Shown: piece by piece, positions 6,838 through 8,750 of the stretch
Numbering within the stretch: position 1 is the first letter of the stretch
Layout: every line of letters begins with the position of its first letter
Assembly: GCA_022360155.1 (NCBI GenBank)
Contig: JAKSDJ010000034.1
Span: forward strand, 1 to 34,477
Origin: Chloroflexales bacterium
GTDB lineage: Bacteria > Chloroflexota > Chloroflexia > Chloroflexales > Chloroflexaceae
Direction: 5' to 3'
DNA length: 34,477 bases
The notes under the pieces: generated by a model
Databases searched by the model: none
What the model was told of the DNA's origin: nothing
What the model saw: the letters and a program-made list of their open reading frames with translations, nothing else
Made by a program: the position numbers and the translations under genes

Positions 6838-7038
6838 CTAGCGCCAGCGTCCAGCAGCGGTGTCACGCGGCTCTGCACCGACGGTAGGTTTGCGACCACT
6901 GCGCAACCGGCGGGCAAACGCGGTAATATTGGTGAAGTAGAAGCTGACAACTAGGCCGACGACAGTAATAATCAACGATGCCCAACAAACGAGCAGCGGA
7001 GTGAGCGGGCCGATCATCTCGGTGAAATTGCCAGTCAT
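6838..7038 (-). CDS. Small single-helix membrane protein of unknown function
   Basis: I do not recognise this 66-residue protein. It has a short acidic N-terminus, one hydrophobic helix from about residue 12 to 35 (LTPLLVCWASLIITVVGLVV), and a basic tail with RRLRSGRK. This predicts one membrane span with the tail in the cytoplasm. ATG 7038 is well supported: GAGAGGAG sits 8-9 nt upstream, better than the in-frame start 18 nt earlier. It has its own promoter and a long leader, and is followed on the same strand by bchI and bchD, so it heads that unit. The helix has no His, so it is not an ordinary antenna polypeptide. Small one-helix subunits occur in reaction centre-antenna complexes of filamentous phototrophs; a similar role is possible but only a guess from position. 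Confidence 0.75.
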   Translation of the reverse strand: MTGNFTEMIGPLTPLLVCWASLIITVVGLVVSFYFTNITAFARRLRSGRKPTVGAEPRDTAAGRWR

Positions 7039-7307
7039 AGGATATTCTCCTCTCAACGCTTTCGCTCTTCTAGCGCGAAAAACGGTACAATCAACTCGTA
7101 CTTTTTGGTGGATCGATGTAGCTGGTCTTTACTAATTTTACCATAGACCGTAGATGATCACACGGGATTGCCGCCAGTATCTTGATTGTGTTGGGAAGAT
7201 CGTTTATCGGCGGCGACAACCAAGATCACCCCCTCGCGCTCTAGAGCGCCGGAGAGTGGGACCGCAGGCTACCGCACGTTTATTTGCTCACGAACATGTC
7301 ATGCTCC
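7039..7307 (-). promoter_or_regulatory. Long structured 5' leader of the bchI-bchD unit
   Basis: From the promoter at 7308-7336 to the start at 7038 the transcript would carry about 260 nt of leader. It contains a 14-bp perfect palindrome GCGCTCTAGAGCGC (7236-7249). It also has two complementary 6-nt pairs that interleave: ATCTTG (7221-7226) with CAAGAT (7179-7184), and GCCGCC (7209-7214) with GGCGGC (7170-7175). They can form either a pseudoknot or two mutually exclusive hairpins. No known riboswitch class is recognised, so control by the leader is an inference. Confidence 0.4.
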
Positions 7308-7517: not shown

Positions 7518-8750
7518 TCAGCGATAGAGCGGTGATGCCGGGCGGCGCAGATCGACATAGCGATACGGCTCCCCGCTCTTTTGCAACGCAGCGAGAATGG
7601 CGAGCTTGCTCTCGATCTCGTGTTCGTTGCCAAAGCAGATGGTCGTATTGCCGTCGATCGTCAAGGTCAACCCCTTTTTAGGATCTTGGTTGGCCTCGGT
7701 AACATACATGCCCAACTCTTTGAGCAGCCGCGAGACGACCCGTTTGGTCGTTGCGTCCAGCCCTGGCTTCTCGCTAACTGCCGCCTGTTGCATCAGATCG
7801 AGCGAAAGGTGCGGGATAACTTTCGCCTTCTTGCTGCCAAATAGCTCGTCTGCCGTTGCGCCGGTGGGAACGATATCGGGTTCTTCGGCGCCAAAGACGG
7901 CCAGAAAATCCTTGTACGGCAGCGGCCTGACCTGTTCCATATCGACCGGCGGCGTCGTTTTGTTGACGATATGCTGGGCCAGATCATCAAAGATTTTGTC
8001 GAACATCGGGTCGACCAACGCCAGCTTGCAGGCATCAGCTAGTTCGCGCACCCGCCGATCGAGGGGGATTTTGGCCAAGATCGGCAGGTTGATCTGCGAT
8101 GCGAAGGCTTCGGCTACGCCGCTGCCATCGTCGCGATTGATAATCAGGCCAAGCAGGCGAGTCCGCCCGCCCATGCTGGCGAAATACTTCGCGGCGCTGG
8201 CGATATTGTTGGCGGCATAGAGGCTCTGGCGATCATTCCCGCAGAGGATAATCACCTCTTCGGCGAGCGAACGGGAGAGCGGCGTGGCGAAGCCGCCACA
8301 CACCACGTCGCCCAGGAAGTCCATCACCACATAGTCGAGCATCCACTGGCTCATGCCAAACTTTTCGAGCATATCGAAGCCGAAGGTGATGCCGCGTCCG
8401 CCGCAGCCGCGCCCAACTTCAGGGCCGCCGATTTCACAGCCGTAAACAGTCGCCTTGCCTTCCATGATCTCGGTCTTGAAGATCACGTGGTGCGCCTGCA
8501 AGTCCTCTTCGTGACCAGACTCCTTGAACTCGCGCCAAGTATCGCCAAGCGTCGGCAAGCTGACTCCGCCAAAGAGCGCGTTGCAGCTATCGTGCTTGGG
8601 GTCGCAGCCGAGCTGCAAGACGCGATTGCGCAGCAACGCAAGCTTGCTGACCAGGTTGGTCGTAAAGAAGGATTTGCCCATACCCCCTTTACCGTAGACG
8701 GCAAGCATCCGTGCATTCGTTGAACCAGGCGATTTGGGGTTGGCAGGCAT
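7518..8750 (-). CDS. bchX: Chlorophyllide a reductase iron protein BchX, C-terminally extended
   Basis: BchX is the nitrogenase-like ATPase that passes electrons from ferredoxin to BchYZ for reduction of chlorophyllide ring B. Residues 13-300 match BchX rather than BchL: Walker A YGKGGMGKS (19-27), LQLGCDPKHDSCNALFGG, GPEVGRGCGGRGITFGFD with iron-sulfur Cys116, and VVMDFLGDVVCGGF with Cys151. ATG 8750 is chosen because AGGAGGTGTGTG precedes it; an earlier in-frame start adds 34 unlikely residues. The protein is 410 residues, against about 330-360 for most BchX I know. The excess, from about 307, ends LTIDGNTTICFG...KLAILAAL...YRYVDLRRP, which resembles the C-terminal strands of the cell-division protein FtsQ/DivIB. 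It lies 71 bp after bchC. The partner genes bchY and bchZ are not present. Confidence 0.94.
   Translation of the reverse strand: MPANPKSPGSTNARMLAVYGKGGMGKSFFTTNLVSKLALLRNRVLQLGCDPKHDSCNALFGGVSLPTLGDTWREFKESGHEEDLQAHHVIFKTEIMEGKATVYGCEIGGPEVGRGCGGRGITFGFDMLEKFGMSQWMLDYVVMDFLGDVVCGGFATPLSRSLAEEVIILCGNDRQSLYAANNIASAAKYFASMGGRTRLLGLIINRDDGSGVAEAFASQINLPILAKIPLDRRVRELADACKLALVDPMFDKIFDDLAQHIVNKTTPPVDMEQVRPLPYKDFLAVFGAEEPDIVPTGATADELFGSKKAKVIPHLSLDLMQQAAVSEKPGLDATTKRVVSRLLKELGMYVTEANQDPKKGLTLTIDGNTTICFGNEHEIESKLAILAALQKSGEPYRYVDLRRPASPLYR

Follow-up and report, generated by a model that had tools for sequence, protein, structure and literature searches.

A domain related to the cell-division protein FtsQ at the C terminus of BchX from phototrophic Chloroflexota

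Introduction

The closest described relatives of the protein that we analyse here are the BchX proteins of purple bacteria (TIGR02016), the iron-protein subunits of chlorophyllide a reductase (COR). They have the same NifH-like core, P-loop, and cluster cysteines, and their genes also lie among bch genes. They differ at the C terminus: as an earlier note on this DNA had already supposed, purple BchX ends early, about 30 residues past the core, with a KPSLEVxYDDA-type end. Among the matches listed (plasmids and genome contigs), no purple-bacterial BchX has the FtsQ-like domain that we describe below. Another comparison is BchX from family f8 of the Chloroflexia, which we infer to be similar to 'Ca. 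Chlorohelix'. It is a BchX homologue from the same class and is followed by bchY and bchZ, but its open reading frame is just 294-307 amino acids long and has no extension.

The extension itself is related to the cell-division protein FtsQ/DivIB (PF03799; PDB entries 8p1u, 8bh1, 6h9o, and 2vh1), with which it shares a homologous alpha-beta-beta-beta-alpha-beta unit and a Y-x-DLR end. Unlike FtsQ, BchX lacks a POTRA domain and a membrane helix, does not lie in a ddl-ftsQ-ftsA locus, and matches only positions 44-114 of the Pfam model. A further comparison is with the N-terminal arm of BchL from DPOR, as described in PMC7948495. This arm, too, is tethered to a NifH-like iron protein that acts in making bacteriochlorophyll, but it is N-terminal, flexible, and autoinhibiting, whereas the addition to BchX is C-terminal, folded, and derived from FtsQ.

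We found no earlier description of an FtsQ-like domain on BchX in the portion of the open-access literature that we could consult, and it may have been mentioned elsewhere. In open-access full text, BchX and FtsQ were mentioned together in a Rhodobacter transcriptome study alone.

The bchX gene and its C-terminal extension

The window that we analysed is a stretch of 34,477 nucleotides (contig JAKSDJ010000034.1). Its relevant features, with their basis in parentheses, are:

7518..8750, minus strand: bchX, COR iron-protein subunit X, 410 amino acids plus stop (translation, TIGR02016, Fer4_NifH)
7848..8711, minus strand: BchX core, residues 14-301, a NifH-like ATPase (TIGR02016 match)
7755..7847, minus strand: flexible linker, residues ~302-332 (AlphaFold pLDDT, identity, omega)
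7521..7754, minus strand: FtsQ-derived mini-domain, residues ~333-410, predicted alpha-beta-beta-beta-alpha-beta (PF03799, HHalign, AlphaFold, Foldseek)
7545..7559, minus strand: YVDLR at residues 398-402, the strand that bears the 'Y-x-DLR' signature of FtsQ (tail alignment, PDB FtsQ alignment)
6841-7038, minus strand: gene for a 66-residue single-pass membrane protein, between bchX and bchI (conserved next to bchX in almost every f1 genome)

The protein is BchX, as judged by the equivalog model, the P-loop and cysteines, and the bch gene context. The NCBIfam equivalog TIGR02016 matches residues 14-301 with 463 bits (cut-off 331; E = 3e-139), and Fer4_NifH matches with 231.7 bits. The P-loop (GKGGMGKS) is at residues 20-27, and the cluster-ligand cysteines C116 and C151 are invariant in our alignment of BchX. 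According to Pfam, the neighbouring genes encode a ChlI-like subunit of Mg-chelatase (BchI), a VWA/AAA chelatase subunit (BchD), and a BchC-like zinc dehydrogenase, with BCHF, PUCC, and CobN/Mg-chelatase (BchH) as further neighbours. By reading the translation of BchX, we saw no signal peptide, hydrophobic N-terminal segment, or membrane segment. The assembly that the window comes from has 1048 contigs that sum to 8.9 Mb, and its contamination is estimated at 6%; it is bigger than those of most relatives and may be a mixed bin.

The earlier note had reported about 100 extra residues after a normal BchX core, and this is correct: TIGR02016 stops at residue 301, and 7518-7832 encodes residues 307-410 plus the stop codon. 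The motifs that it had quoted are at residues 363-374 (LTIDGNTTICFG), 382-389 (KLAILAAL), and 396-404 (YRYVDLRRP). The DLR of the YVDLR strand is invariant across 12 of 12 diverse BchX tails. The end of the BchX model at residue 301 also disposes of the alternative that the extension is an already-known BchX domain unrelated to FtsQ. As for the proposed likeness to the end of FtsQ/DivIB, the resemblance holds up but the span needed refinement: the tail covers just the latter half of the beta domain, and the folded part begins at about residue 333, after a disordered linker.

Homology to the beta domain of FtsQ

The Pfam family FtsQ_DivIB_C (PF03799) is the sole family that matches the isolated tail, with 24.1 bits (above the cut-off of 21). 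In whole BchX, the match is to residues 338-402 and falls just below the cut-off (20.8 bits, E = 7e-4). The match covers profile positions 44-114 of 114, so the domain is incomplete. Among the 12 diverse BchX tails, 5 match PF03799 at E ≤ 0.1.

Genome searches led to the same family. When we searched whole genomes in six frames with BchX, most relatives had one more matching gene, which aligned to the tail alone and was 27-44% identical to it. These additional genes coincide with genes that were found independently with PF03799, and they adjoin ftsA and mostly ddl. A profile built from the 12 diverse tails and run against 41 whole genomes in six frames matched only BchX and the ftsQ gene at E ≤ 0.01. 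The window's genome has an FtsQ of its own, with POTRA_1 and PF03799, which is encoded between ddl and ftsA on a different contig from bchX. In scans of viral contigs, no relative was confirmed, either for BchX or for the tail.

In a profile-profile comparison with HHalign, 52 BchX tails aligned to 34 FtsQ sequences from Chloroflexales with a probability of 98.8-99.2%, 37-39% identity, and a score of 106, as compared to a mean of 12 (standard deviation 2.5, maximum 23.4) for 100 controls with shuffled columns; these FtsQ sequences were initially chosen by their likeness to the BchX tail, but the Pfam, gene-order, and PDB tests are independent of that choice. The N-terminal part of FtsQ gave no HHalign match to the tail (probability 0.1%). 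Against the PDB, the best match of the tail profile was an FtsQ, namely that of entries 8bh1 and 8p1u (E = 0.001), and IDLRYP of FtsQ from the P. aeruginosa divisome structures aligned with the DLRRP strand region of BchX. A phmmer search of the PDB with a single tail found nothing credible; the match came with the profile only.

The likeness to FtsQ that was noticed from the sequence is thus homology and not mere resemblance, given the PF03799 match and the HHalign probability of up to 99.2%. It is all but certain that the tail of BchX is a homologue of the FtsQ/DivIB beta domain. BchX itself is not an FtsQ, because it has only half of the beta domain and no POTRA domain, membrane helix, or export. 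(A Pfam scan found no POTRA domain in BchX, unlike in this genome's own FtsQ.)

Predicted structure

We modeled full-length BchX and the tail alone with AlphaFold. The mean pLDDT was 78.9 for BchX (alignment of 12 sequences) and 67 for the tail (5 sequences), with about 80 over the folded part of the tail; the alignments are shallow, the placement of the domains is uncertain (pTM of 0.65 and 0.51, respectively), and the quality is modest. Both models agree on a disordered linker, a helix, three strands, a helix, and a strand. The predicted elements are helices at 333-346 and 379-392 and strands at 350-356, 360-365, 369-374, and 398-400. Linker residues 307-323 have pLDDT below 50.

The fold comparison with the FtsQ beta domain that the earlier note had suggested came out in its favour. 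When we compared the model to the PDB with Foldseek, the top 10 matches were all FtsQ, with probabilities of 0.93-1.00, a best E value of 1.9e-3, and TMq of 0.39-0.52, and the probability dropped to 0.23 at rank 11. The tail is therefore predicted to adopt the FtsQ beta fold.

Distribution across phototrophs

In class Chloroflexia, we found BchX in 63 of 158 genomes, and 61 of the 63 belong to families f1, f2, and f4. In 58 of these 61, BchX has the full tail (to residue 408-410 of the query). Two of the other three are cut by contig ends (G034 and G002), and the third (G032) lacks the last residues. In Anaerolineae, all 18 BchX matches, from 17 genomes, have the tail. Every complete BchX that we searched in type-II phototrophic Chloroflexota, in about 75 genomes, carries the tail. 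One genome from Anaerolineae (G298) has two divergent copies of BchX (L091 and L092), both with an FtsQ-like tail.

The remaining two Chloroflexia genomes with BchX are from family f8 and lack the extension: the match ends at 286-288 and the open frame is of the length given above. The FMO protein is encoded in both of these genomes and is missing from six genomes with extended BchX, so family f8 most probably represents the type-I 'Ca. Chlorohelix' lineage (PMC10972752). For the other lineages with related genes, the phototrophy of 'Ca. Thermofonsia' (Anaerolineae) is regarded as a transfer from Chloroflexales, and BchX from Chlorobiales groups with that of Chloroflexales in published trees (PMC10972752).

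BchX from the isolate Oscillochloris sp. ZM17-4 (L098; the end of bchX is near 7158) ends in YRYVE and a stop codon, about 10 residues short, so that LRRPASPLYR is missing. We did not find the lost residues in other reading frames. From this truncation, the last strand seems not to be absolutely required.

Two other loci have a NifH-like protein with a different kind of addition. By reading, the frames of 768-879 amino acids in L178 (G030:C1289, from 1417) and L179 (G001:C60, from 999) combine a NifH-like iron protein with a NifD/BchN-like subunit, so that an iron protein and its catalytic partner share one chain. In L179, the next open frame (442 amino acids) resembles a second NifD/BchN-like subunit.

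Origin and selection

In a tree of the BchX core, the sequences from f1, f4/f2, and f29 unite on one branch (98%), and those from f8 and the purple bacteria fall outside it, although the f8 sequence has a very long branch and its placement is unsure. In a tree of the tails together with FtsQ, which rests on 90 columns, the BchX tails group together except that two very long FtsQ branches (L184 and L186) fall among them, which is probably an artefact. A single fusion is likely. We infer that it took place long ago in the ancestry of the type-II phototrophic Chloroflexia and that the fused gene was later passed to the Anaerolineae along with other photosynthesis genes. The donor was an FtsQ, probably from Chloroflexota, but the tails do not branch from within the FtsQ sequences that we sampled.

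The tail is under strong purifying selection, almost as tight as that on the catalytic core. Pairwise Nei-Gojobori estimates of omega for core, linker, and tail were 0.033, 0.140, and 0.031 within f4; 0.084, 0.228, and 0.105 within f29; and 0.075, 0.295, and 0.097 within f1, where dS is near saturation. Amino acid identity within f1 was 0.54 for the linker (taken as 291-334) versus 0.85 for the core. Since the tail is held nearly as tightly as the core, it is functional in most species.

A small membrane protein beside bchX

The 66-residue membrane protein encoded at 6841-7038 was a candidate for an FtsB-like partner of the tail. It matches chain N of PDB entry 8ydm (E = 7e-21), which is annotated as a hypothetical protein. 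In the Roseiflexus-like genome G042, the small membrane ORF located downstream of bchX matches the chain that 8hju and other entries name 'subunit Z / reaction center small polypeptide', and the small membrane protein of one f4 genome is nearly identical to the reaction-centre 'subunit Z' chain of 8hju, one of the clues to the probable identities of the families. In most f29 loci, we found no such small membrane ORF after bchX. We therefore rejected this candidate as a proven partner and regard it as a probable subunit of the reaction centre.

Possible roles of the extension

The earlier note had suggested that the extension could serve docking, dimer control, or membrane localisation. BchX of type-II phototrophic Chloroflexota is best explained as a fusion in which a flexible linker connects the COR iron protein with the latter half of an FtsQ/DivIB beta domain, and we propose that the tail may act in the cytoplasm as a tethered module for docking proteins. 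The analogy is with E. coli FtsQ, where a strand of FtsB pairs with the final strand of the beta domain, centred on Y248 (PMC6134095). This residue comes after the Y-x-DLR motif, whose Y243, D245, and R247 are named in the same study. By pairing at its edge strand, the tail would keep the iron protein of COR close to a partner, which could be BchY/BchZ, a neighbouring enzyme of the pathway, or a membrane protein. The disordered linker in the AlphaFold models counts toward docking. In the alignment, BchX residue 403, which is equivalent to Y248, is arginine in nearly all f1 sequences, tyrosine in most of f4, f2, and f29, and glutamate in genus g21 of f4. Because it varies among families, the FtsB hot spot is not consistently kept, and the details of an FtsB-like binding mode are not conserved. 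BchY and BchZ from the same genomes have no obvious co-occurring extra domain, so we did not find the docking partner there. The loss of the last ~10 residues in Oscillochloris sp. ZM17-4 and the shallow alignments behind the models also weigh against this reading. Docking is our leading guess for the role of the tail, but a tentative one that we would put somewhat below an even chance. A more specific version is that this divisome-derived beta module is a strand-addition dock in the cytoplasm that would bring the COR iron protein to the place of reaction-centre assembly, for instance via a small membrane subunit of the reaction centre. The candidate gene for that subunit adjoins bchX in f1 and is near it in Roseiflexus-like genomes, but we consider this version very unlikely.

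The C-termini of NifH-type proteins run along the dimer, and this general knowledge, together with strong purifying selection and the lack of an evident partner, would fit a tail that stabilizes the BchX homodimer or its folding and has no separate partner. A variable linker that is predicted to be disordered speaks against such tight packing, and the BchX of purple bacteria and of the FMO-bearing f8 genomes manage without a tail, so we think this is unlikely. A flexible linker would instead permit the tail to reach back over the BchX dimer as a regulatory arm, covering or releasing the [4Fe-4S] cluster or the docking face for BchY/BchZ in response to nucleotide or oxygen. The sister enzyme provides a precedent: according to PMC7948495, the flexible N-terminus of BchL autoinhibits via its cluster, and ATP binding releases it. 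The tail is also confined to the COR iron protein, as other NifH-like proteins from the same genomes are not matched by the tail profile. But as described there, the BchL element is a flexible arm and not a folded domain, and we saw no conserved cysteine or other redox motif in the alignment of the tails. A regulatory arm is rather unlikely, though a serious contender.

The beta domain of FtsQ and the part of FtsB that binds it are outside the cytoplasm. This weighs on the idea that the tail couples pigment synthesis to the divisome by binding partners of FtsQ such as FtsB: the contact between FtsQ and FtsB is extracytoplasmic, while BchX has no signal peptide or membrane segment, and the arginine in place of Y248 in nearly all f1 sequences is also unfavourable. 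So even though the tail derives from the part of FtsQ that bears the FtsB-binding strand (PMC6134095), a link to the divisome is highly improbable. The reading that the tail is a functionless passenger of an accidental gene fusion would account for the loss of its end in one isolate, but it is strongly disfavoured by the data on selection and distribution. The tail is kept in 58 of 61 genomes from Chloroflexia (with two of the other three cut by contig ends) and in 18 of 18 cases from Anaerolineae, with omega of 0.03-0.1. Taken as a whole, an old domain fusion that was reused as a tethered dock in the cytoplasm is the best explanation, which we favour at slightly better than even.

Significance

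This architecture is apparently undescribed: a piece of an extracytoplasmic cell-division protein on a cytoplasmic nitrogenase-like ATPase, under selection across the type-II phototrophic Chloroflexota. The tail is a clean shared marker for the movement of bacteriochlorophyll genes, as it is on the Anaerolineae copies and is missing from the FMO-bearing sister lineage. Its presence or absence on BchX of Chlorobiales would make one disputed gene transfer testable. The tail also predicts that the green filamentous phototrophs have a partner for COR or a means of controlling it.
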